DNA of 64,000 nt, taken from the NCBI GenBank assembly GCA_002689995.1, contig NZIV01000063.1, positions 164,833 to 228,832 on the forward strand, given 5' to 3'. A program made the position numbers and the translations under genes. Origin of the DNA: Fidelibacterota bacterium (GTDB lineage Bacteria; Fidelibacterota; Marinisomatia; SCGC-AAA003-L08; GCA-2689995). Positions within the stretch are counted from its first letter, which is position 1. The number at the start of each line of letters is the position of its first letter. Below, in pieces: positions 8,019-63,750 of this stretch. The notes beneath the pieces are model-generated. The model was not told the DNA's origin. It saw nothing but the letters and a program-made list of their open reading frames with translations, and ran no database searches.

Positions 8019-8855
8019 ATGAAAATAATTAAATTTTTAATTTTAATTTTAATTTTGAATTGTGGAAAAAATGAAAAGATATATCCTGCTGTAGGTGTAA
8101 TATATGAATTAATAACTGAAAAACGAGAGATGATAGTTCATCATGATGAGATACCGGGATTTATGATGGCAATGACTATGACATTGAAAGTAGATCAATC
8201 TGTAAAGATGGAAAACTGGCAACGAGGTGATAGTATTAGTTTTGATATTGTCATTAATGGAAATAATGGATTTATTCGCTCACTTGATTATAGGGGAAAA
8301 GTAAATATACCAGAATCGATTGATGATTTCTGGAAAGATGAAGATTCTCCAATAAAAGTTGGTGAATTTATTTCTGATGCGACATTTTTAGATTTAGATA
8401 GTAATGAAGTATCACTTTCAAAAAATGATGGGAAATATAGATTTATTTCATTTGTTTTTAGTAGATGTCCAATGCCAAATATGTGTCCAGCTTTAATGAT
8501 GAAATATCGTTATCTAGCGAATGAACTAGAGTCCAATGAGAATTTAGAATTTATTACAATTAGTTTTGATTATATTTATGATAATCCTTCCACCCTGATT
8601 AAGCATTACGGTAGTATTGTTGAACCATTTTCAAATTGGAATGTATGGTCAAGCTTTGGTCATGCATCAGATATGATTACGTTTGGCCATTATAGCCAAT
8701 TCGCTTTTTGGGGTGTAGAAGAAAACAATATTGGACACTCTATGAGATCTTTATTAATTTCACCAGATTTAAAATTAATTCAGGCCTGGGATGGCTTAGA
8801 TTGGAAAGCGGTAAATATTAAGAAGGATATTGAAACTTTTTTACAGTTGATGTAA
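8019..8855 (+). CDS. CusF-like copper-binding domain fused to SCO1/SenC-family domain
   Basis: 'VIYELITEKREMIVHHDEIPGFMMAMTMTLKV' CusF-like; 'FISFVFSRCPMPNMCPALMMKYRYL' SCO/thioredoxin-like metal site. Confidence 0.8.
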   Translation: MKIIKFLILILILNCGKNEKIYPAVGVIYELITEKREMIVHHDEIPGFMMAMTMTLKVDQSVKMENWQRGDSISFDIVINGNNGFIRSLDYRGKVNIPESIDDFWKDEDSPIKVGEFISDATFLDLDSNEVSLSKNDGKYRFISFVFSRCPMPNMCPALMMKYRYLANELESNENLEFITISFDYIYDNPSTLIKHYGSIVEPFSNWNVWSSFGHASDMITFGHYSQFAFWGVEENNIGHSMRSLLISPDLKLIQAWDGLDWKAVNIKKDIETFLQLM

Positions 8856-9046
8856 TTAAAAATAATTCTTCTTAAGGGATTTACTTAATAAGATATATAT
8901 AGCGCATTAGCTTAACAATAAGTTTTAGAATTTAAGATCCAAAATATTTTAGTTATGAAAGCAAATTATAATTTTTCTGATGAAATCACCCCCAAAAAAG
9001 TTAATATACATTTTGATTTTATAGTTTAAGTCTGAAGTTGAAAAAC

Positions 9047-10117
9047 TTATTTGATAATTATGATTTTCTCAGAAAGAGTGATATTAGAATATTTTACTTG
9101 AAAAAAGTATATACCATTAGCAATATTTTGAGGATTAAATTGAAATTGATTTAAACCAATTTGATTAGTTCCAGAAAAAATAGTTTTAACCTTTTTCCCT
9201 TGAATATTCACAATATTAATTTTCATTAAATGTTTTATTTTTGCATTTAATTCTAAAATATAATGATTCTTTTTCATATATGAATTTATTTTAATTGAAC
9301 TTTTTTTTCTAAAATCCTGAATATCTAAGTTGCAATTTGTAGTCCATATACATTCAACCCACGCCGGGATGTCAATAAATGGATTTCGATTTCCTTGAAT
9401 TAAATATATTTCATCGTTTCGTATTATTTCTTTATTACTAACAGGGTCATTTAAATGCCAGTTAATCATTGCGTTTAATGCCCATTCTTTTAATTCCGCA
9501 CCATTAGTCATATCCGTATTGTCCCACGATGAATCTTCATTATAGTAACGAGTAGACATATAAAAATAGGTTCTTGCAAAATCACCTTTGTATTCATCAA
9601 TTGGTTCAAACACTATTCCATTATATCCTAAATTAGACGAAATACCTTTTTTACTTCCATTTGTTGAAATCCATGAAGGCGAGTCAACATCTCCATAAGG
9701 ATAATTCCCTCGATGGCTATTTACGTAACCATCAGTAGGATATAAGTGAAATAAATCAGAATTCATAGGACTTGCATTATTAAACCAACTTTTTGGCCAA
9801 GAATGTTCACGATTATAACAATCACCTTCACCAGAATAATTTCCACATTGATCAGATGATGTAAAATTATATACATACTCTGGCGATTCATCTGGACTAT
9901 CAGAATACATATCCCAAACAGTATTATTAAATTTTCGATCAGTTGTTTCAAAATGATCATGTATTGAGTTATAGCTTTGCACAGTATGATTGTCAATGAT
10001 TTCATGAAGACTAATTTTCAAATTTATACCGGTTAGTCCTTGAGTTGAATCATAATATCCATCAGGTATATCTGCTGTGATGAATGATAGGTAAATGAAT
10101 AGAATTATTTTAGACAT
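9047..10117 (-). CDS. Secreted endonuclease I family nuclease with T9SS-like C-terminal tail
   Basis: 'CYNREHSWPKSWFN...DLFHLYPTDGYVNSHRGNYPYGDV' EndA/endonuclease I motif; C-term 'NIQGKKVKTIFSGTNQIGLNQFQFNPQNIANGIYFFQVKYSNITLSEKIIIIK'. Confidence 0.88.
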   Translation of the reverse strand: MSKIILFIYLSFITADIPDGYYDSTQGLTGINLKISLHEIIDNHTVQSYNSIHDHFETTDRKFNNTVWDMYSDSPDESPEYVYNFTSSDQCGNYSGEGDCYNREHSWPKSWFNNASPMNSDLFHLYPTDGYVNSHRGNYPYGDVDSPSWISTNGSKKGISSNLGYNGIVFEPIDEYKGDFARTYFYMSTRYYNEDSSWDNTDMTNGAELKEWALNAMINWHLNDPVSNKEIIRNDEIYLIQGNRNPFIDIPAWVECIWTTNCNLDIQDFRKKSSIKINSYMKKNHYILELNAKIKHLMKINIVNIQGKKVKTIFSGTNQIGLNQFQFNPQNIANGIYFFQVKYSNITLSEKIIIIK

Positions 10118-10288
10118 AGAATAAATTATAGTTATCTATCTTCAATATTGTATCTAAATTCAGAACGCGATTATTCCTTGGACTATTTTAAGGTCTTTAT
10201 TAAAAATTATTTTGATGTAATTCAAAAATCGATTTAAAATACATAAAAAAAGAAACTATTTAGATATTTTAATTATGTACTATAAACT

Positions 10289-10912
10289 TTAGTTTGTTGT
10301 AAGCTTAAAGTTAATTGGAATAGACATCCAAACACCAACTTTTTTATCTCTTTGTCGAGCAGGTTTCCAGCGTGTGCGTTTAACTGCTTCTAAAGCTGCT
10401 TCATTTAGCCCAGTGTTAGGTATTCCTTTTAAAATCATAGTATCTTCAACAATACCTTTATTATTAATAAAAGCCTGTACAATCACAGTGCCTTCAATAC
10501 CAGCTTCCATAGCAATTTCTGGATACTCTGGTCTTATTGGACTTTTTGGTATTGGAGCTTTATCATATGGTATAAATTTTACTTTTCTACCTTGGTCAGG
10601 AGGCGGAGGTGGAGCATCCCAATCTTCGAGGTCGTCTAAATCGGTTTCTTCAATTGTAATATCATCATCTAAAAATTCATCCTCAGATGCAACTGGGACA
10701 GAAGGTCTCGCAGGAGGTTTTTCAATTTGCATTTGTTCTGTAGGTGGTACAACTATAGATTCAATATCTTGAGGGATAAACTTTTCAATAGTTGTTGTAT
10801 TTTCTTTTAATCTGGGTGAAATATAAAACACGGTTGAAATAAATAAAATTATCCCCATTGAAATAGCTCTAACTCGAACTGGATAATTATATATTAAAGG
10901 ATCAACTCTCAT
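10289..10912 (-). CDS. tonB: TonB family energy transducer
   Basis: Single TM then 'SPIRPEYPEIAMEAGIEGTVIVQAFINNKGIVEDTMILKGIPNTGLNEAALEAVKRTRWKPARQRDKKVGVWMSIPINFKL'. Confidence 0.92.
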   Translation of the reverse strand: MRVDPLIYNYPVRVRAISMGIILFISTVFYISPRLKENTTTIEKFIPQDIESIVVPPTEQMQIEKPPARPSVPVASEDEFLDDDITIEETDLDDLEDWDAPPPPPDQGRKVKFIPYDKAPIPKSPIRPEYPEIAMEAGIEGTVIVQAFINNKGIVEDTMILKGIPNTGLNEAALEAVKRTRWKPARQRDKKVGVWMSIPINFKLTTN

Positions 10913-10915
10913 AAA

Positions 10916-11326
10916 TTAGTCTATCTTTGTTAATGCAGAATAATTTAATTTTAATGCCTGAGCATTTCTCATTTCAGTGTGAATATCTGTTATTACTTTC
11001 ATTTGAGCATCTTCATCAGATTTTAATGAAATAGTTAGTTTTGGATCTGAAGACACTTTTTGATAAATTATATTTCTTAATGCTTGTCCTTGAATAATTC
11101 TATCATCAATATTGACTAAACCATCTTTAGAAGCCCAAATATATGCTGTATGTCTTTTACTTTCAAGTTTTTCAATAGTTTTAGCTGTCGGAAGAATAAC
11201 TTTGAGTCCTTCAAATTCTCTCATGACTGTCGTCACCATGAAGAAAATCAGCAACATAAAAATAATATCGGGCATCGAAGAAGTTGAAATTCCTTTTTTG
11301 GTTGATGTTTTTCGTACAACTTTCAT
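10916..11326 (-). CDS. exbD: ExbD/TolR family biopolymer transporter
   Basis: 'STSSMPDIIFMLLIFFMVTTVM' single TM ExbD motif. Confidence 0.9.
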   Translation of the reverse strand: MKVVRKTSTKKGISTSSMPDIIFMLLIFFMVTTVMREFEGLKVILPTAKTIEKLESKRHTAYIWASKDGLVNIDDRIIQGQALRNIIYQKVSSDPKLTISLKSDEDAQMKVITDIHTEMRNAQALKLNYSALTKID

Positions 11327-11725
11327 TTATTGATCCGGATTTGCTATTGAAATACGAGAAGCTTTGGCAATTTTTAATTGATCTAATACAGATATATAAT
11401 CACTATATTTTGTTCTTGAATGAGTTTGAACAGAAAAAATCATTTTATCATTTTGTCTTAGTTTTTCAGTTACTAATCGAGAAATTTCTCTAGTTTTTGC
11501 GGGTTTTTCATCAAACAATACCTTGCCTGATTCATTAATTAGAATATTTGTAATATTTTTACGATTGACTTCAAGCTCTTCTCCTACCGGTGGTAAAACT
11601 AAACTAAGACCTTTATCCATTGAAATTGTTGTAGTAACCAAGAAAAAAACTAATAAAAGGAATGCTATATCAGCCATCGAGGATGAGTTTATCTCTTCTG
11701 TTTCTGGTCTTGCTTTTTTAATCAT
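11327..11725 (-). CDS. exbD: ExbD/TolR family biopolymer transporter (second paralogue)
   Basis: 'INSSSMADIAFLLLVFFLVTTTI' ExbD motif. Confidence 0.9.
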   Translation of the reverse strand: MIKKARPETEEINSSSMADIAFLLLVFFLVTTTISMDKGLSLVLPPVGEELEVNRKNITNILINESGKVLFDEKPAKTREISRLVTEKLRQNDKMIFSVQTHSRTKYSDYISVLDQLKIAKASRISIANPDQ

Positions 11726-11747
11726 AAAATTTATTTAGTGGCGTTTT

Positions 11748-12371
11748 TTATTTGTTTCGCAACTGACTTTTTATACTATCCATAACAATCACAGAGCTTT
11801 TTTGCATATTAACAATCTGTAAATCAATAATATATAAACATAGATTTTGGAATAATTGCAAAATAACTGCTGCGATTAATCCAAATGCAGTTGTTAAGAG
11901 AGCAACAGAAATACCTCCTGCAACAACTGCCGGAGAAATATCATTTGCCGCTTTAATATCATCGAAAGCTTGAATCATACCTACAACTGTTCCCAGAAAT
12001 CCAATCATAGGTGCAGTTGCGATACATAAAGAAATCCATGTCATATTTTTTTCCATAGCTGCCATTTCAATTGCAGAAGTATTATCCATAGATTTTTCAG
12101 CTTCTTCTACGCCAAATTCAGCCTTTGAAATTGTTTCATGGCAAAGGTTTGAGATTGGACCAACACCTTGGACACTTTTTTCAACGCCTGATTTAATACC
12201 AGATGAATCTACAGTTTCTGCAACTTCTTGTGCAAAACTAAATCCATATCCAAGTCCTTTTAATAAAAAGTAAAGTCTTTCACCAACAAATATTAAACCG
12301 ATTATTAAAATAAATAAAATTGGCACCATAAAACCACCGCCTTGGCTAAAATAATATGTGGCTATTTGCAT
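11748..12371 (-). CDS. exbB: MotA/TolQ/ExbB proton channel family protein
   Basis: 'TAPMIGFLGTVVGMIQAFDDIKAANDISPAVVAGGISVALLTTAFGLIAAV' diagnostic ExbB/TolQ region. Confidence 0.93.
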   Translation of the reverse strand: MQIATYYFSQGGGFMVPILFILIIGLIFVGERLYFLLKGLGYGFSFAQEVAETVDSSGIKSGVEKSVQGVGPISNLCHETISKAEFGVEEAEKSMDNTSAIEMAAMEKNMTWISLCIATAPMIGFLGTVVGMIQAFDDIKAANDISPAVVAGGISVALLTTAFGLIAAVILQLFQNLCLYIIDLQIVNMQKSSVIVMDSIKSQLRNK

Positions 12372-12470
12372 AAATATCCTTTCTTGTTGTAAATACTAAT
12401 GGAAAAATATAGACTATTATTTAACTATAAATTTTAAATAGATTATTGATTACAGACAAAGCATAATTAT

Positions 12471-53754: not shown

Positions 53755-54447
53755 ATGGAAAACAAAAAACATATAGTAATAATAGACGATGAGCAAGATA
53801 TTTTAGAACTTTTACGATATAATTTTGATAAAATTGGATATAGAACAACATGTTTATCTGATGGTGAAAGTGCATTAAAAGAAATTAGGGAATCTCTACC
53901 AGACTTAATACTTTTAGATCTTATGCTTCCAGGAATTGATGGATTAGATGTTTGCAGAATACTAAAAAATAGTGAACAGACATTAAAAATACCTATTATA
54001 ATGATTACTGCAAAAGGAGAAGATCCAGATGTTATCAAAGGATTAGAGATTGGGGCTGATGACTATGTTACAAAACCATTTAGTTTAAAAGTTTTATTTG
54101 CAAGAGTAAATGCGTTATTGAGAAGAAGAGCTGACTCGCTAAATTCTAATAATGAAATACAAATTAAAGAAATCTCCATCCACCCAGGCAAAAGACGAGT
54201 AAAAGTTCGTAATAAGAAAATAGAGCTAACATTTTCTGAATTTCAGATATTATATTTATTAGCAGGGAGACCTAATATAGTTTTCAGTAGGCAGCAAATT
54301 ATTGATGAAATCCATGGAATTAATTATCATGTAACAGATCGTTCTATTGATTTTCAAATAGTTGGTCTTCGTCAAAAATTAGGAAAAGCTAAAAAATATA
54401 TTCAAACAATACGTAGTGTAGGGTATAAATTTAACCCTGAAGAATAA
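53755..54447 (+). CDS. phoB: Response regulator, OmpR/PhoB family
   Basis: Receiver 'IVIIDDEQDILELLRYNF', 'LILLDLMLPGIDGLDVCR', winged helix 'VTDRSIDFQIVGLRQKLGKAKKYIQTIRSVGYKF'. Confidence 0.88.
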   Translation: MENKKHIVIIDDEQDILELLRYNFDKIGYRTTCLSDGESALKEIRESLPDLILLDLMLPGIDGLDVCRILKNSEQTLKIPIIMITAKGEDPDVIKGLEIGADDYVTKPFSLKVLFARVNALLRRRADSLNSNNEIQIKEISIHPGKRRVKVRNKKIELTFSEFQILYLLAGRPNIVFSRQQIIDEIHGINYHVTDRSIDFQIVGLRQKLGKAKKYIQTIRSVGYKFNPEE

Positions 54448-54450
54448 AAT

Positions 54451-56205
54451 TTGAAAAAAAAATCAATCTCAAAAAAATTATTTAAATTTTTTTGCATTAT
54501 ATTAGTTATAACAATCCCTTCTATGGGATTTTTTTATACTTATTATATAAAACAATTCTACTTTTCTGAAAATCTAAAAAACCTTACTTCAAAAGCAAAA
54601 TTACTTGAAAAAGTTATAATTGATAAAAATCTTGATGATATTAAAAATACAGATGAGATTTTTAAACAATTAGGACGAGAAACAAGTACTAGATTTACTT
54701 TGATTGATATAAATGGAAATGTTATTGGAGATTCTCATCAAAGTTCAAGTTTGATGGACAATCATCTAAATAGACCAGAAATAATGATGGCGCTAAAAAA
54801 TGATTTAGGGACGTCAATTCGTTTTAGCTCAACACTTCAAATTGATATGTTATATTTAGCTATTCCTTATTATCACAATAATAATAGATATATTATTCGA
54901 ACATCTATTTCAATTTTAGATCTTCAGGAAAATATTAACAAATTATATTTCAGTTTGATAATTATTGGTGCTCTTGTTTTAATTGTTTCATTAATCCTTT
55001 GCTTTTATTTTGCTCAAAATATTGGAAAAATATTTAACGAAATCGGAAACCACTCAGTAAAAATTTCTGAAGGTAATTTTAATAGCTACCTTCCAGAAAA
55101 TAATATTATTGAATTAGATAATTTGTCAAAATCAATAAATTCGATGGTAAATGGTATTGGTAGTCGAATAAAAACGATATCAAGACAAAAAAATGAATCA
55201 GAAACAATTTTATCAAGTATGTCTGAGGCTGTATTAGCATTGGATTTAAATGGGAAAATATTGATGCTAAATTCTTCTGGGTATAATTTATTTAATCTCA
55301 ATTTAGATAATACGATAGGTAAATCTGTTTATAAACTGATAAGAAATTCTAATATATTGAGTTTTTTTGAGGAAATTATTGAAAAACAAGATTTAATTGA
55401 AAAAGAAATTAAAATGACAAATACTGATAAAGTCTTAATTTCACGAGGAACAATACTTTTAGATGATTTGCGAAAACCAATTGGAGCTGTAATTGTATTT
55501 AATGATATAACTAAAATTCATGTTTTAGAGAATATAAGGAAAGAATTTGTTGCAAATGTGTCACATGAATTAAAAACTCCTGTAACGGCAATTAAAGGTT
55601 TTGTAGAGACTATGATTTCAAGTACGGATAATAAAGAACAAAATAAATTTTTGAAAATAATTGAGAATCATAAAAATCGCCTCAATGATATTATAAATGA
55701 TTTATTATTTTTATCTCGAATTGAAGGTAAAAATGAAAGAAATAAACTAGATATTAAGAAAAGTAACATATTATTGATTTTAGAAGCTTCAAATTTTGAA
55801 TGTCAAAATTTAATAGAAGAGAAAAATATTCCTTTAAAAATTGAATGCAGTGATAAAATAAAAATGAATCTGAATCCAAGATTAATGCAAGTTGCAATAA
55901 CAAATTTACTAATAAATGCAATAAAGTATAGTGATAAAAACTCCAAAATAAGTATAGTTGTAAAAGATCAAAATAAAAACTTATTAATTTCAGTTATTGA
56001 CAGTGGAATCGGAATTGAGGAGAAACACCATGGAAGATTATTTGAAAGATTTTACAGAGTTGATAGTTCGCGAAATAGAGAAGAAGGTGGAAATGGACTT
56101 GGACTTGCAATAGTTAAGCATATTATACAAACGCACAATGGTGAAATTTTAATAAAAAGTGAAGTGTACAAGGGGACTACTTTTACTATTAATCTCCCAA
56201 AATAA
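54451..56205 (+). CDS. phoR: Sensor histidine kinase, PhoR-like (HAMP, PAS, HisKA, HATPase)
   Basis: 'FVANVSHELKTPVTAIKGFVETM', 'DSGIGIEEKHHGRLFERFYRVDSSRNREEGGNGLGLAIVKHI'. Confidence 0.88.
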   Translation: MKKKSISKKLFKFFCIILVITIPSMGFFYTYYIKQFYFSENLKNLTSKAKLLEKVIIDKNLDDIKNTDEIFKQLGRETSTRFTLIDINGNVIGDSHQSSSLMDNHLNRPEIMMALKNDLGTSIRFSSTLQIDMLYLAIPYYHNNNRYIIRTSISILDLQENINKLYFSLIIIGALVLIVSLILCFYFAQNIGKIFNEIGNHSVKISEGNFNSYLPENNIIELDNLSKSINSMVNGIGSRIKTISRQKNESETILSSMSEAVLALDLNGKILMLNSSGYNLFNLNLDNTIGKSVYKLIRNSNILSFFEEIIEKQDLIEKEIKMTNTDKVLISRGTILLDDLRKPIGAVIVFNDITKIHVLENIRKEFVANVSHELKTPVTAIKGFVETMISSTDNKEQNKFLKIIENHKNRLNDIINDLLFLSRIEGKNERNKLDIKKSNILLILEASNFECQNLIEEKNIPLKIECSDKIKMNLNPRLMQVAITNLLINAIKYSDKNSKISIVVKDQNKNLLISVIDSGIGIEEKHHGRLFERFYRVDSSRNREEGGNGLGLAIVKHIIQTHNGEILIKSEVYKGTTFTINLPK

Positions 56206-56344: not shown

Positions 56345-58336
56345 ATGAAGAATATAATACTATTAATACCAATATTAATCAATTTATTGTCCGCAGTAGA
56401 TCATTGCGGAACGTTAACATCAGATGAGACATGGGCTGCATCGGATGAACATTTATTGACGTGTCAAACATTTGTACCAGCAGGAGTAACTTTGACAATC
56501 GAAGCAGGGGCAACGGTTAAGTCATTAGCGGATGATGGTAATGGTTTAGCACCGGCTTTAGTTGTTATGCAGGGTGGAATGCTTATGGCTGAAGGAACAG
56601 CAGGAGCACCAATTACATTTACAGCAGATATGACTGACGCAGAGTTGGCAGCAAACCCAAGAGGAAACTGGGGTGGTGTGATTATCAATGGTTATGCACC
56701 GATTGCAACGACAGGTGGGGTTAACTATGTTGAAGGTTTAGAAGGTGTTCCATATGGAGGAAGTGATCCAGATGATAACTCAGGAGTACTGAGTCATGTT
56801 CGAGTATGGCATGGTGGTCGTTCAATTGGAATGGACAATGAGATTAACGGTATCACATTGGCTGGTGTTGGTCGAGGGACAACAGTAGAATATAGTGAGG
56901 TTGCTTACAATTTAGATGATGGGTTCGAGATGTTTGGTGGTACAGTTGATTTACATCATTGTTCAGTTGTAAACGTTGGAGATGATGCTTTTGATACAGA
57001 TGAAGGTTATCAAGGTAGAGGTCAATTTTTATTTGTTCATAGAGATGCTGAGAGTGATAAAGCACATGAAATGGATAGTAAAACAAACAGTGATTTTGAC
57101 TCACAGCCAAGATCTCATCCAATGTTTTCAAATGTTACAGTTATGGGTGGAGCAGAAGATGCTTTAAGATTAAGAGAAGGTACCGGTGGTGATTTTAGGA
57201 ACTATATTATATATGATGTTGGTGATGATGCAATTAGGAATGATGACAATGGTTCAGAGTTGGTAACACAGGACTTTTCAGCGACAGCAGGATTGTATCC
57301 AGATTATTTATATATATCTTCAAACACATTAATGTGGAATGTTGGTAATCAGCTTTTTAATGATTTTGAAGATACACCATCATTTGCAGGGACAGCAATA
57401 GAAGCTGATCCTGGATTAAGTTCAGCATATATGGTTGTTACGCCAACAGCAGGTGGAGCAGCATATCAAAGTGTTGATGCTGTGGCAGAGGCATGGTTTA
57501 CACAGACAGATTACAAAGGTGCTTTTGGACAAGACAACTGGCTAGAAGGACTTTCTATATTATCTGGAACGTTTGCACAAGAACCTGACTGTGGTAGTGG
57601 AGATGTTAATTTGGATGGTTCAATAAATGTTGCAGATATTGTAATAATGGTTCAATATATTCTTGGTTTAGTTCAGTTTAATGATGCTGATATTTGTACT
57701 GCTGACGTTAATCCTGATGGAGTGATAAATGTTGTTGATATCGTTCAGACTGTACAATTTATATTGGGTCCTTTAGCATTTGAGTTTGAGGCTAGTTATG
57801 TCAATATTATAAAAGGTGTTGAAAGTGTATCATATGATTCTGATGGCTTAGTTGGTGCAGTTCAATTTGAATTAACACATGATGCTGACTTTTCAATAGA
57901 ATTAGCAGAAGATGTTATGATTGCAGATTACATTACAAATGATAATAAAACGCTAATTATTATAGTAAATCCATATTCAAATAAATTATTTGATATAAAA
58001 GGAAATTACAAAATATCTGAAGTTATTTCAGCAAATAGTGAGACCTTGATCCCGACTAATGTTGTTATTCCTGATGATTTTGTATTATCAAATGCGTATC
58101 CAAACCCATTTAATCCAATTACTACATTAAATATACAGCTTTCAAATGAAAGTTTAGTTGTAGCTAAAGTATTTAATGTTAATGGTCAACTAGTAGATAT
58201 AATTCATAATGGTGTAAAAAATGCAGGATCGTATAATTTAACCTGGGATGCAGTTAATTTTTCCTCTGGTATCTATTTTATTGAGACTTCAATTGATTCA
58301 AAAACATTGATTCAAAAAGTTTCTTTGATAAAATAG
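56345..58336 (+). CDS. Secreted right-handed beta-helix-like protein with dockerin-like repeats and T9SS-like C-terminal sorting tail
   Basis: 'CGTLTSDETWAASDEHLLTCQTFVPAGVTLTIEAGATVKS'; 'GDVNLDGSINVADIVIMVQYILG...ADVNPDGVINVVDIVQTVQFILG'; 'LSNAYPNPFNPITTLNIQL...GIYFIETSIDSKTLIQKVSLIK'. Confidence 0.8.
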   Translation: MKNIILLIPILINLLSAVDHCGTLTSDETWAASDEHLLTCQTFVPAGVTLTIEAGATVKSLADDGNGLAPALVVMQGGMLMAEGTAGAPITFTADMTDAELAANPRGNWGGVIINGYAPIATTGGVNYVEGLEGVPYGGSDPDDNSGVLSHVRVWHGGRSIGMDNEINGITLAGVGRGTTVEYSEVAYNLDDGFEMFGGTVDLHHCSVVNVGDDAFDTDEGYQGRGQFLFVHRDAESDKAHEMDSKTNSDFDSQPRSHPMFSNVTVMGGAEDALRLREGTGGDFRNYIIYDVGDDAIRNDDNGSELVTQDFSATAGLYPDYLYISSNTLMWNVGNQLFNDFEDTPSFAGTAIEADPGLSSAYMVVTPTAGGAAYQSVDAVAEAWFTQTDYKGAFGQDNWLEGLSILSGTFAQEPDCGSGDVNLDGSINVADIVIMVQYILGLVQFNDADICTADVNPDGVINVVDIVQTVQFILGPLAFEFEASYVNIIKGVESVSYDSDGLVGAVQFELTHDADFSIELAEDVMIADYITNDNKTLIIIVNPYSNKLFDIKGNYKISEVISANSETLIPTNVVIPDDFVLSNAYPNPFNPITTLNIQLSNESLVVAKVFNVNGQLVDIIHNGVKNAGSYNLTWDAVNFSSGIYFIETSIDSKTLIQKVSLIK

Positions 58337-58501: not shown

Positions 58502-61500
58502 ATGAAAAATTTATTTTTCTTTATAATATTCTTATCTCACTTATTATCTGCAGATTTAATAGGAAATGTTTCTGATAAAAATTCAAAAGAACCGCTAATT
58601 GGAGCTAATGTTTACATAAAAAATACAAATTTTGGCGCTGCAACTGATCTAGATGGGAATTTTATCATTAAAAATATTCCAACAGGAGATTATTTAGTTA
58701 TTGTTTCATTTATTTCATATAAAACCATTGAAAAAAGTATTAACATAATTGAAAAAAATGAAATATTCAATTTTGAATTAGAGATTAATTCTTTACAAAC
58801 AAGCGAGATAAATGTTAGTGGTGTATTAAAAAAAAGCAATGAAATAAAAAAAATATTTGATCAAAAACAGTCAAAAAATATTATTAATACTTTTTCAGAG
58901 AGTGAGCTTAGAAAAAGCGGAGATTCAAATGCTGCTGAAGCATTAAGACGGATAACAGGTGTTACAATAGTTGAAGATAAAAACATTGTAATAAGAGGCT
59001 TGGGCGATAGATATAGTCAAGCTCAAATAAATGGTTTAACAATGCCTAGTACAGATCCCGATAAGAGAAATTTACCATTAAATTTATTTCCATCAAAAAT
59101 CATTGAAAAAATTGAGGTATATAAAAGTTATCATCCTAAACTACCAGGAAACTTTGCAGGTGGCTCCATTAATGTGAAAACAAAATCATATCCAGATAAT
59201 TTCATATTAAAATTCAACATAACAAATTCTAATAATTCAAATCTATCAATTAATAATATTAGATTACCTAATAATGGATATGTAAATGTATATGGTGATT
59301 ATTCAGATTATAAACTTGATTTAAGTAAAAATGAATTTGGTTCAAAATATATATTTGAATACAGACCGGTATATTTCAGACAATATCATGGTACCGATTT
59401 AAGCGAAGAGAGCTATATATTTGAAACATTCCTAAATGATTTAGAATATAGTAACTATGAATTTATTGAAAATAATGATTGGAATATCGATGACCAAATT
59501 TGGGAACAATTTTATTATAATAAATTAGCAGCTAATGTACAAAATTTAAAATCAAGCTATCAAAAAAATCAAATTAATGATGAGAATTTAAAAATTTTCG
59601 GGATACAATTACCAAGGTCTCCTTTTGGTTTTTCATTAATGAATGGTAATAAATATGAAAAGTTAAGTAAAACTGAATTTGGTTACTTTATAAATTTAAA
59701 CTATAAGAATGATTTTGAAACAAATATTGAAAATAATAAAATCCATTCAAAAAGTGGTAATAGTTATAATGTCCAATATGATTTTGATCAAAATCAAAAT
59801 AGTTTTAAGACAAATTTATCTATTCTTGCAACGACAGGCATTAAATATAAGTTTAATAAAAATCATTTTTTTAAAATTGATTATAATTATTTAGATATAA
59901 TTACTTCAAAAAATGAGGCAATGTCAACCTTTAGCGATGAATCATTTTATGAGCTAGATAATGGTGGCTTATCCTTATCCGATAAAATAACTGAAAAATC
60001 AATTAAATCACACCACTATATAATAAATCATAATTTTGTAAATGATAAATTTTCATCAGAATTAAGTTTTTTTTATAATAATAGTAAATCAAACTTAAAT
60101 ATGCCAGATATGAAACAGCAGACCTATCACAAAAATATTTATCAAGGAAATGGAGTTTGGGATGATGATGAAATATTTGTTGATTCAAATTTGAATGGAA
60201 TTTGGGATGAAGGCGATTTATTTACTGATTTAGGAAATGGAATTCGGGATGATGGTGAATCATTCACAGATTTAGGAAATGGAGTTTGGGATCAGCAAAA
60301 TGGTTTTGAAGATTTTAATGATAATGGAATCCCGGCTTTTGGGTGGAGTGGTGAAAATAATGGTATATGGGACTTTGCAGATTCTAATGGTAATGGAATT
60401 TGTGAGGAGATTATAGGCTTGAACCCTTTATTACCTAATGTGTCATATTGGGAATGCGAGACTTGGACTGATATAGGTAATGGAGTTTGGGATGAAAATG
60501 AGGTGTTTTTTGATATAGGTAATGGAGTTTGGGATGAAGGTGAAGAAATTATATATGATTTTAACAATAATGGTTTATATGATACTGCAGAGGAGTATAT
60601 TGATTCAAATGGTGATGGAATTTATAATTATGCAGAATTATTTGAAGACACCAATGGAAATGGAATTTGGGATGAAGGTGAAGAATTAGTAAACGAGAGG
60701 ATTGATTATTTAAATGAAAATTATAGGTATTTATCTCTTATTCAAGGCCAAGGTGAAAATGGAGTTAAGCCAACTAAAAGGACTTGGGTTTATGGAGGAG
60801 AAAAGCAAACATCATTTGGGTTAGATTATAATTTTAATTTTAAAGTTTTAAATGATATTAACATTGATTTTTTGATTGGTATTGAGTCTATAGAAAAGGA
60901 TAGATCATTTAGTAAGAGAGAATTTACAATGGGAACTAATTCTTCTTTCAATATTTTTGATGGCATATTTAATCCCAATATAAATTACCCTGGTGAAATA
61001 TTTGATGATACAGATAATCTATTCTCCTTACAATTAGAGACATTTACTGATAATAATGGTAACGGTTTATGGGATTCTGAGGAATTATTTAATGATTTAA
61101 ATAATAATGGAATTTGGGATGGACCAGAGGTTTTTAATGATTTAAATAATAATGGAATTTGGGATGGACCAGAGGTTTTAGTTACTGATCTTGGCAATGG
61201 AATTTGGGATGAGGGTGAGGTTTTTATAGATGTTAATAATGATGGTCATTATAATCCAAGTGATGAATTTATCGATTTGAATGGCAATGGAATTTGGGAT
61301 GGTGATTACTTTGTTGATATAAATGGCAATGGAGAATATGACGCAGATGATTTTTTAGAATCAGCATCATTTTTAGGTAACTGTGACTATGATGGAGATG
61401 GTTATTTTGATGGACCATGTGATGTCAATGGAGATGGTATCTATAATCTAATGGAAGAACTTATAATTGATTGGGATAATGATGGATATTGGGATAATGC

Positions 61501-63109
61501 AGAATCATTCACAGATTTAGGTAATGGAATTTGGGATGAGGGTGAAGAATTTAATGATATTAATAATAACGGAATCTGGGATGAGGACGGAGAGCCCGTT
61601 GTAGATAGTAATAATAATGGACAATGGGATGATGCAGAGATTTTTGATGACATTAATAATAACGGAATTTGGGACGCTGGTGAAGATTTTATTGATATTC
61701 AAGATCCTGAGTTAGTCAATGGTCTTTATGATGAAGGTGAAAAGTTTACAGATTTAAATAACAACGGTGTCTGGGACCAAGGGGAAGATTTCGATGATGG
61801 TTATAATGGTGTTTATGATAATTTCATTCAACAGGATGGTATTTATATGATGGAAAGTTCAGCGTTAGCATCAAATAATTCTTACAGAGCACAAGAAAAT
61901 TTAATGAGTAGATATTTTTTATTGAATACTACATTTAATGAATTAACTCATATCGATGAAATTAACTTTGGATTAGGTTTTAGATACGAAGATTATAGCC
62001 TTTATATGCAACCATACAATACAGTTACAGGTGAAAATCTTTGGAGGACAATATCAAAGAATAATGTCTGGGACCAGACTGAAATTTTTGAAGATAATAA
62101 CATGAATAATCAATATGATCCAGGTGAAAATTTTCAAGATATAAATGGAGATGGTGCATTTAATTTCGGAGAATCATTTTCAGATTTGAACGATAATGGT
62201 ATTTGGGATGAAGGTGAGCCATTAAACGATAGACATCCAATTTTATTAATTAATGCTAATAAGAAAGAGAAAAAACTATTACCTGTAGTTAACTTTAATC
62301 TATCTCCTAATAAGTTAATGAAGGTTCGTTTATCATATTCAAAAACTATAGCAAGACCAAATTATAGAGAATTAGCTCCAACAAAATATGAGGAGTTTTA
62401 TAGTGATAGAGCTATAGAAGGCAATCCTTATCTAAAGACAACAGATATTACTAACTATGATTTGAGATTTGAATTCTATCCTAGTTTAGCAAGTATGTAT
62501 TCAATAGCTTTTTATAAAAAAACATTTGAAAATCCAATATCATTAGTAATTAGACCAGGATCAAGTCATAATTATATTTCATATTCAAATTCTAAAAATG
62601 CAAGTGTTGAAGGATTTGAAGTTGAATTTATGAATAAATTAAAATTCATTCCAGTAAATTTAGGGAGTTTCAGTTTAGGTTCGAATTTATCATTTATTAA
62701 TAGTGAATCAAAATCTTATGATCAGTTTATTAGTTATATGGGAAATGTACAGTCAGATATTTCAAATAGTAAAGATAGGCCAATGATGGGTCAATCAGAT
62801 TTTATATTTAATGGTAGTTTAGGATGGAGTTGGAAAAATTTTTATGAGCTAAATTTATCATATAATTATTACACTAAGAGATTAATTTATGTTGGTGCTG
62901 GAGAATCACCAGATGAATATGAATATCCGCAGCCAGATCTAAATTTAACTTCAAAAATTAATTTTAAAGATGTTTCAATTTCGTTTAAAGTTAAAAATTT
63001 ATTTGACTCTGAGTATAAATTGGGATCTGAATATAATGATATTACTTATTATACGAAGAAATATAGACCTGGAATAAATTACAGTATTAGTATTGGCTAT
63101 GGTATATAA
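58502..63109 (+). CDS. TonB-dependent receptor (CarboxypepD_reg-like N-domain, plug, barrel) with large EF-hand-like repeat insertions
   Basis: N-term 'LIGNVSDKNSKEPLIGANVYIKNTNFGAATDLDGNFIIKNIPTGDYLVIVSFISY'; plug 'AAEALRRITGVTIVEDKNIVIRGLGDRYSQAQINGLTMPSTDPDKRNLPLNLFPSKIIEKIEVYKSYHPKLPGNFAGGSINVKTK'; C-term 'KVKNLFDSEYKLGSEYNDITYYTKKYRPGINYSISIGYGI'. Confidence 0.9.
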   Translation: MKNLFFFIIFLSHLLSADLIGNVSDKNSKEPLIGANVYIKNTNFGAATDLDGNFIIKNIPTGDYLVIVSFISYKTIEKSINIIEKNEIFNFELEINSLQTSEINVSGVLKKSNEIKKIFDQKQSKNIINTFSESELRKSGDSNAAEALRRITGVTIVEDKNIVIRGLGDRYSQAQINGLTMPSTDPDKRNLPLNLFPSKIIEKIEVYKSYHPKLPGNFAGGSINVKTKSYPDNFILKFNITNSNNSNLSINNIRLPNNGYVNVYGDYSDYKLDLSKNEFGSKYIFEYRPVYFRQYHGTDLSEESYIFETFLNDLEYSNYEFIENNDWNIDDQIWEQFYYNKLAANVQNLKSSYQKNQINDENLKIFGIQLPRSPFGFSLMNGNKYEKLSKTEFGYFINLNYKNDFETNIENNKIHSKSGNSYNVQYDFDQNQNSFKTNLSILATTGIKYKFNKNHFFKIDYNYLDIITSKNEAMSTFSDESFYELDNGGLSLSDKITEKSIKSHHYIINHNFVNDKFSSELSFFYNNSKSNLNMPDMKQQTYHKNIYQGNGVWDDDEIFVDSNLNGIWDEGDLFTDLGNGIRDDGESFTDLGNGVWDQQNGFEDFNDNGIPAFGWSGENNGIWDFADSNGNGICEEIIGLNPLLPNVSYWECETWTDIGNGVWDENEVFFDIGNGVWDEGEEIIYDFNNNGLYDTAEEYIDSNGDGIYNYAELFEDTNGNGIWDEGEELVNERIDYLNENYRYLSLIQGQGENGVKPTKRTWVYGGEKQTSFGLDYNFNFKVLNDINIDFLIGIESIEKDRSFSKREFTMGTNSSFNIFDGIFNPNINYPGEIFDDTDNLFSLQLETFTDNNGNGLWDSEELFNDLNNNGIWDGPEVFNDLNNNGIWDGPEVLVTDLGNGIWDEGEVFIDVNNDGHYNPSDEFIDLNGNGIWDGDYFVDINGNGEYDADDFLESASFLGNCDYDGDGYFDGPCDVNGDGIYNLMEELIIDWDNDGYWDNAESFTDLGNGIWDEGEEFNDINNNGIWDEDGEPVVDSNNNGQWDDAEIFDDINNNGIWDAGEDFIDIQDPELVNGLYDEGEKFTDLNNNGVWDQGEDFDDGYNGVYDNFIQQDGIYMMESSALASNNSYRAQENLMSRYFLLNTTFNELTHIDEINFGLGFRYEDYSLYMQPYNTVTGENLWRTISKNNVWDQTEIFEDNNMNNQYDPGENFQDINGDGAFNFGESFSDLNDNGIWDEGEPLNDRHPILLINANKKEKKLLPVVNFNLSPNKLMKVRLSYSKTIARPNYRELAPTKYEEFYSDRAIEGNPYLKTTDITNYDLRFEFYPSLASMYSIAFYKKTFENPISLVIRPGSSHNYISYSNSKNASVEGFEVEFMNKLKFIPVNLGSFSLGSNLSFINSESKSYDQFISYMGNVQSDISNSKDRPMMGQSDFIFNGSLGWSWKNFYELNLSYNYYTKRLIYVGAGESPDEYEYPQPDLNLTSKINFKDVSISFKVKNLFDSEYKLGSEYNDITYYTKKYRPGINYSISIGYGI
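60151..60693 (+). repeat. EF-hand-like loop repeat block 1 (protein level) in the TonB receptor
   Basis: Units such as DSNLNGIWDEGDLF, DLGNGIRDDGESF, DIGNGVWDEGEEI, DTNGNGIWDEGEEL. Confidence 0.85.
61048..61835 (+). repeat. EF-hand-like loop repeat block 2 (protein level)
   Basis: Units such as DLNNNGIWDGPEVF, DLGNGIWDEGEVF, DINNNGIWDAGEDF, DLNNNGVWDQGEDF. Confidence 0.88.
61088..61177 (+). repeat. Exact 45-bp tandem duplication (2 copies) within block 2
   Basis: tttaatgatttaaataataatggaatttgggatggaccagaggtt (FNDLNNNGIWDGPEV) at 61088-61132 and 61133-61177. Confidence 0.95.
62065..62227 (+). repeat. EF-hand-like loop repeat block 3 (protein level)
   Basis: DNNMNNQYDPGENF, DINGDGAFNFGESF, DLNDNGIWDEGEPL. 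Confidence 0.8.
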
Positions 63110-63750
63110 TGAAATTTTTATTTCTAATTAATATATTATTATTCGCAGGGGAGATTGAATTTTGTAAAATTAAAATCGATAATCATAATTTTCAGATTAG
63201 TAAAAATGAAATAACATATTCCCAATATGTAAAATATTTAAATCAGGCAAGATTTCAAGATTCTTTAACAATTAACGAGAATAAAATTTTTGGTTATTTT
63301 AAAAATAAAGATATAATTAAAAATAATTATGTTCCATATTTTTATAATTTAGATACTTCTTGTACAAAAATTGACGAGCCATCTATTTGTATGAATAATG
63401 GAGAATTTTATTTAAATAATGGTAGATTTAAAAATCATGCTATTAATTTTGTTACATGGTTTGGTGCAAATAAATTTGCAGACTATTATAATTATAATAT
63501 ACCTTTGAAACATGAGTGGGAAGTTGCTGCAAAATTAGATACTCTTTCTTTAGAAAATATGATTGGTGGTGTTTCTGAGTGGGTAACTGATCTATGGGTG
63601 CCAAATTCGCATTATTCCCATAGAATTATAAAAGGTGGAAGTACTAAACAACCTAACAATAAAAAATTTCTTAATGCAGATTCAATTCAAGCAAATTTCC
63701 CTTCACATGCAAGTAAATTTGTTGGATTTAGAGTCATTATCCGATATTAA
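63109..63750 (+). CDS. Short SUMF1/formylglycine-generating-enzyme-like secreted protein
   Basis: 'FQISKNEITYSQYVKYLNQA', 'HAINFVTWFGANKFADYYNYNIPLKHEWEVAAKL', 'GGVSEWVTDLW', 'IIKGGST...FVGFRVII'; start overlaps receptor stop (TAATG). Confidence 0.75.
   Translation: MKFLFLINILLFAGEIEFCKIKIDNHNFQISKNEITYSQYVKYLNQARFQDSLTINENKIFGYFKNKDIIKNNYVPYFYNLDTSCTKIDEPSICMNNGEFYLNNGRFKNHAINFVTWFGANKFADYYNYNIPLKHEWEVAAKLDTLSLENMIGGVSEWVTDLWVPNSHYSHRIIKGGSTKQPNNKKFLNADSIQANFPSHASKFVGFRVIIRY

Follow-up and report, generated by a model that had tools for sequence, protein, structure and literature searches.

The window analysed here, a 64,000-nucleotide stretch of DNA from a Fidelibacterota bacterium, carries towards its end a single open reading frame with an ATG start that encodes a TonB-dependent receptor of 1535 residues. 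The receptor and its neighbours are as follows.

53755-54447, + strand: PhoB-like response regulator (best NCBIfam match PhoB, 237 bits against a cut-off of 296)
54451-56205, + strand: PhoR/PnpS-like sensor histidine kinase (NCBIfam, under the curated cut-offs)
56345-58336, + strand: ElpS/FI-like secreted partner, 663 residues, with a dockerin type I domain and a type IX-style C-terminal sorting domain (Pfam, NCBIfam, locus comparison)
58502-63109, + strand: TonB-dependent receptor with three repeat blocks, assigned to the ElpS-partner (Cc0171) type (ORF, Pfam, NCBIfam, ortholog alignment, gene context)
63109-63750, + strand: FGE-sulfatase-type (formylglycine-enzyme-like) domain protein, directly downstream of the receptor (Pfam)

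Pfam scans of the receptor matched CarbopepD_reg_2 (residues 21-105), Plug (residues 121-220, E 2e-12) and the barrel (residues 1039-1500, E 5.8e-11) and found no cohesin domain. The Plug domain together with a 22-strand barrel, the strands being counted on the model of the closest ortholog, TMED198, identifies the protein as a TonB-dependent receptor. The TIGR01782 TonB-Xanth-Caul model scored 199 bits (E 1.3e-58) against a curated cut-off of 310 bits, placing the receptor as a relative outside that subfamily. The FGE-sulfatase-type gene overlaps the stop codon of the receptor, and a similar gene adjoins the ortholog in L097.

The receptor contains three blocks of a short tandem repeat:

60137-60706, + strand: repeat block 1, residues 546-735, 12 unit cores, predicted to lie in L4, the extracellular loop that joins strands 7 and 8 (alignment, unit list, model)
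61037-61819, + strand: repeat block 2, residues 846-1106, 17 unit cores, predicted to lie in L5, the extracellular loop that joins strands 9 and 10 (alignment, unit list, model)
62063-62239, + strand: repeat block 3, residues 1188-1246, 4 unit cores, predicted to lie in L6, the extracellular loop that joins strands 11 and 12 (alignment, unit list, model)

An earlier note on this sequence had put the repeat at about 30 units and about 500 of the 1535 residues, and our count of 33 unit cores over about 510 residues agrees with both figures. The unit has the consensus D-x-N-x-N-G-x-W-D-x-G-E, with W or Y at position 8, F or L at position 14 and mostly N at positions 3 and 5, and units are mostly spaced 14-16 residues apart. 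The strict pattern occurred 17 times in the receptor, compared with a mean of 0.016 and a maximum of 2 in 2000 whole-protein shuffles, and 18 times within the blocks, compared with 0.06 when the residues of the blocks themselves were shuffled; since these counts far exceed both kinds of shuffle, composition alone does not explain the pattern. A full ligand set (D1, N/D3, N/D5, G6, D/N9, E/D12) was present in 16 of the 33 units, while six were 11-residue 'DxGNG' loops, one residue short and lacking the position-3 ligand, and 11 were degenerate. All three blocks are strongly acidic, with net charges of -46, -73 and -14 for blocks 1, 2 and 3.

At the DNA level, tandem repeats of 42/45 bp were found at 60194-60292, 61088-61211 and 61522-61699, and the adjacent loops at residues 865 and 880 share 36 identical nucleotides, which suggests a recent duplication. 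The array is nevertheless not merely a set of fresh copies, because the D1 and G6 codons vary synonymously among the 16 full units (28 and 63 pairs, respectively); as these units were selected for having D1 and G6, the comparison says nothing on selection at those two positions themselves. The fresh duplicates and the 11 degenerate units would both be expected if slippage at the 42/45-bp repeats had simply been tolerated in exposed loops, producing acidic linkers that are mostly disordered and serve no selected role. This is the main rival to a calcium-binding role for the blocks, and we regard it as possible but rather unlikely.

Alignment of eight orthologs from the same class as the window genome, over the whole length of the receptor, revealed that the blocks are clean insertions. 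In the TMED198 ortholog, which is 57% identical to the receptor, blocks 1 and 3 could be matched unit by unit and block 2 was entirely missing; the L097/L115 ortholog had a rudiment only, at the block-1 site, and the remaining six of the eight had no block. A scan of named genomes yielded 56 loci related to the receptor, and in a tree of 50 proteins of the family most orthologous receptors were block-free, with units having been gained at least two times independently, in the window and TMED198 receptors and in a separate clade of seven. In this second clade the units lie in the block-3 loop (L6) and at an additional site between strands 5 and 6 (L3). Receptors on three contigs catalogued as Flavobacteriaceae (L131), SAR202 (L137) and Flavobacteriales (L142) fall within the Fidelibacterota clade, and these contigs are likely mis-binned.

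The absence of block 2 from TMED198 and of any block from most orthologs is consistent with tolerated repeat growth. Arguing against it are the unit-by-unit retention of blocks 1 and 3 in TMED198, the two independent gains within one receptor family, and the better preservation of the ligand columns, which across blocks 1 and 3 of this 57%-identical pair are 67% identical compared with 36% for the other unit columns. From a single sequence pair, this last difference offers modest evidence of constraint.

To place the blocks on the barrel, we used an AlphaFold model of the TMED198 ortholog (residues 111-1286, alignment of 40 sequences), in which the barrel was confidently predicted, with strand pLDDT mostly 80-97, and for which PhuR, FecA and other TonB receptors were the top Foldseek matches. 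With strands numbered from the periplasmic plug and the side of each loop assigned by barrel parity, block 1, the block-2 site and block 3 map to L4, L5 and L6, three consecutive extracellular loops. All of the block sites in both clades are thus predicted to be on the extracellular side, in line with the earlier proposal that the three blocks of the receptor face outward. The closest viral model to the TMED198 barrel was BFVD A0A8D9FQQ5 (E 8e-49, TM 0.79), labelled TonB-dependent receptor SusC and derived from an uncultured marine phage.

Structure prediction, which the earlier note had named as a check on its reading, gave a divided answer, with the barrel folding and the blocks staying unfolded. 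Block 1 had a pLDDT of 25-40 in the TMED198 model, and a block-2 segment, modelled from a register-shifted input alignment, had a pLDDT of 44, with no helix-loop-helix seen at this low confidence. Models that show no array fold are compatible with the disordered linkers of tolerated growth; with regard to a calcium-dependent fold, the unfolded blocks neither favour it nor rule it out.

The repeat is not confined to this receptor. A six-frame search with a 62-residue query from block 2 found units in 17 other proteins of the window genome, including further TonB receptors, giant secreted proteins that have sorting tails, a CHASE2 cyclase and a MalG-like permease. An N-terminal hydrophobic segment was present in 16 of the 17, the one exception being an open frame in which a receptor N-terminal domain is likewise encoded, further upstream. 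Among sampled Fidelibacterota, 51 of 198 genomes contained the repeat at E 1e-6, and most of these belong to the class of the window genome. The block-2 query matched none of 197 Bacteroidota genomes, a phylum for which the search had no positive control, and gave no match in phage records and a few short matches in plasmid records. In other phyla, a few units were found in Azospirillum TadE proteins (such as L189:1183-1743) and in a Candidatus Manganitrophus plasmid protein beside prepilin genes (L190:1-3711).

Several of the hosts show where units can sit. The MalG-like ABC permease (L062:3002-3919, - strand) carries a pair of units in the first of its periplasmic loops, and its neighbours are sugar-metabolism genes and what looks like a MalE-MalF fusion (L062:3923-6112). 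In the CHASE2 adenylate/guanylate cyclase (L052:5669-8917, + strand), a long array of units separates the first membrane helix from the CHASE2 domain, in the periplasmic part of the protein, and similar proteins are encoded by further genomes of that order (L103, L104, L106, L107). A second TonB receptor of the window genome (L051:2826-7985, + strand; 1720 residues) is rich in units and adjoins a secreted dockerin protein. That unrelated hosts carry the units, always in tolerant extracytoplasmic segments, again fits tolerated growth. A more speculative reading, which we advance tentatively, is that a single duplicating calcium module, typical of this phylum, inserts and grows in extracytoplasmic loops of otherwise unrelated envelope proteins, where calcium-loaded rods might serve as a general surface scaffold or shield and so tune the exposed proteome of the lineage.

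The gene neighbourhood points to a physiological role for the receptor. A homolog of the 56345-58336 protein is encoded close to the receptor at 46 of the 56 related loci, across Fidelibacterota, Saprospiraceae, Myxococcota, Gammaproteobacteria and Caulobacterales, and many of the related receptors have PhoB-like genes of at least 50% identity in their vicinity. In Peiella sedimenti (L163), an ElpS-like gene (8243-9718) is followed by the receptor (9791-12448) and then by GspC, D, E and F, an order known from Caulobacter, where cc0170 (elpS), cc0171 (TonB receptor) and type II secretion genes are arranged in this way (PMC2996285). Through this gene order and the homologs in the Peiella and Brevundimonas loci, we assign the receptor to the known ElpS-partner (Cc0171) type. 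The earlier note, whose author knew of no named TonB receptor class with this architecture, was half right: the receptor itself is of a known type, and the insert is a repeat found throughout the lineage and not in this receptor alone.

Caulobacter ElpS is produced under phosphate starvation, and cc0171 is reported to be constitutively expressed (PMC2996285). The strongest responses to phosphate depletion in Flavobacterium include induction of an ElpS-related exoprotein and of a plug/PF13715 transporter (PMC8115612). Given the ElpS-like partner and the PhoB/PhoR-like neighbour genes, the receptor most likely serves acquisition under phosphate starvation, and a phosphate role for the pair is well supported by gene context.

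This context also bears on what the blocks might do. The earlier note had raised docking of the co-encoded secreted protein, which is encoded just upstream and carries a calcium-binding dockerin domain of its own. However, most of the receptors in the 46 loci with a partner homolog are block-free, the partner is up to 65% identical beside receptors with no block or a rudiment only (L115, L116, L119), and the receptor lacks a Pfam-detectable cohesin domain. Since the partner is conserved where blocks are absent, we rejected docking as the reason for the blocks and consider docking arms very unlikely. Alternatively, calcium bound to the arms could bridge phosphates and so capture polyanionic phosphorus compounds such as nucleic acids, polyphosphate or phospholipid heads, making the blocks a substrate antenna. 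The phosphate-starvation-type context of the receptor (PMC2996285, PMC8115612) and the very acidic, outward-facing blocks are in keeping with this idea, but block-free orthologs of the same pair work, and an antenna leaves other hosts unexplained because the MalG-like permease and the CHASE2 cyclase have no phosphate link. We therefore judge an antenna to be improbable.

As for the units themselves, the earlier comparison with the calcium loop of EF-hands fits in full the 16 units with a complete ligand set, the others being short (six) or degenerate (11). Only about three residues separate one loop from the next, so there is indeed, as had been noted, no room for the flanking helices of an EF-hand, and neither the EF-hand Pfam families nor dockerin PF00404 matched the blocks. 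No Pfam or NCBIfam family for the repeat emerged when the receptor and the blocks on their own were scanned, and TSP3_bac (PF18884), searched in the window genome, did not match the receptor. On TonB receptors with calcium repeats, the literature that we searched gave nothing relevant. The Dx[DN]xDG calcium motif occurs in a wide range of folds, needs no helices and can emerge where a loop has lengthened (PMC3123361), and because the units share this ligand pattern we place the inserts with this known class of calcium loops; judged by sequence, they fit a helix-less EF-hand-type pattern.

When a paired-unit profile built from real sequences was searched against solved structures, the nearest entries were lanthanide tags and EF-hands at non-significant E-values of 0.2-7.5. 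That engineered lanthanide-binding tags are the closest solved sequence neighbours of the unit raises the prospect that the loops are naturally occurring lanthanide-binding tags, by which a TonB receptor would capture lanthanides or other trivalent metals. We think this most improbable, since the similarity is non-significant (E 0.2-2), N at positions 3 and 5 is a calcium-type choice, and the gene context indicates phosphate, not lanthanides.

Taken together, we favour, at about an even chance, a phosphate-starvation receptor pair in which the inserts are accessory, calcium-stabilised arms that extend and shield the receptor and whose units multiplied by tandem duplication. The PhoB/PhoR-like system just upstream probably controls the ElpS-like/receptor pair, and the receptor would import a phosphorus-containing compound. 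In this lineage a short helix-less EF-hand-type loop, with a period of 14-15 residues, entered three neighbouring extracellular loops and multiplied there by tandem duplication. Seawater contains roughly 10 mM Ca2+, far above about 100 µM, and at seawater-like calcium a well-formed loop would hold Ca2+ through D1, N3, N5, the backbone at position 7, D9 and E12. It is near 100 µM that calcium is bound by the helix-less EF-like motifs described from disordered proteins (PMC8391695). With calcium bound, the acidic blocks would form semi-rigid arms above the pore, not floppy polyanions, and these arms may extend the surface of the receptor and protect it from proteases or phages, or act as spacers. 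Transport and partner binding would stay with the conserved barrel and plug, the blocks being dispensable for both, and any benefit of the blocks may be small because most orthologs have none. Several points count against this explanation: the arrays are unfolded in AlphaFold models, half of the units are ligand-incomplete, no significant match to a solved calcium protein was obtained, the PhoB- and PhoR-like proteins score under cut-offs, and cc0171 is reported to be constitutive (PMC2996285).

Whatever their function, these receptors form a graded natural series of 0, 2, about 4, 12 and 17 calcium-loop-like units at defined extracellular loops of one receptor family, and this makes them a tractable case for how surface receptors gain extracellular arms, for whether helix-less EF-type arrays fold on calcium, and for whether arms of this kind give shielding from phages or proteases. 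In addition, a receptor from an uncultured lineage can be assigned to a known phosphate-starvation pair, and an apparently undescribed repeat has come to light among the proteins that a little-studied phylum exports.

Of the known systems, Cc0171/ElpS (Cc0170) of Caulobacter crescentus is similar to the window in encoding a receptor together with an ElpS-like exoprotein (PMC2996285); the window differs in its PhoB/PhoR-like neighbours, in the dockerin domain and type IX-style tail of the partner, and in the three blocks. In the phosphate-depletion-induced PUSIII of Flavobacterium johnsoniae, a plug and PF13715 transporter likewise adjoins an ElpS-related exoprotein (Fjoh_3856 (FI)/Fjoh_3857); the likeness is by description, and the sections of that report used here do not mention repeat blocks (PMC8115612). 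TbpA and other large-loop TonB receptors share the fold of the receptor and its long outward loops. To our knowledge, the loops of TbpA are not tandem calcium-loop arrays. Thrombospondin type 3 and TSP3_bac repeats have in common with our units the tandem, helix-less DxDxDG-type calcium loops, but the unit is distinguished by W/Y at position 8, F/L at position 14, mostly N at positions 3 and 5, and the lack of a TSP3_bac profile match. The engineered double lanthanide-binding tag (PDB 2ojr, 3vdz) consists of two back-to-back helix-less EF-type loops with a period similar to that of the unit, although it is engineered, limited to two loops, and non-significant in its similarity to the unit profile. 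Finally, Dx[DN]xDG and Excalibur-like motifs (PMC3123361, PMC8391695) show the same linear ligands with no obligatory helices, and, unlike in these precedents, a single outer-membrane barrel here bears arrays with as many as 17 units, in loops that lie next to one another.
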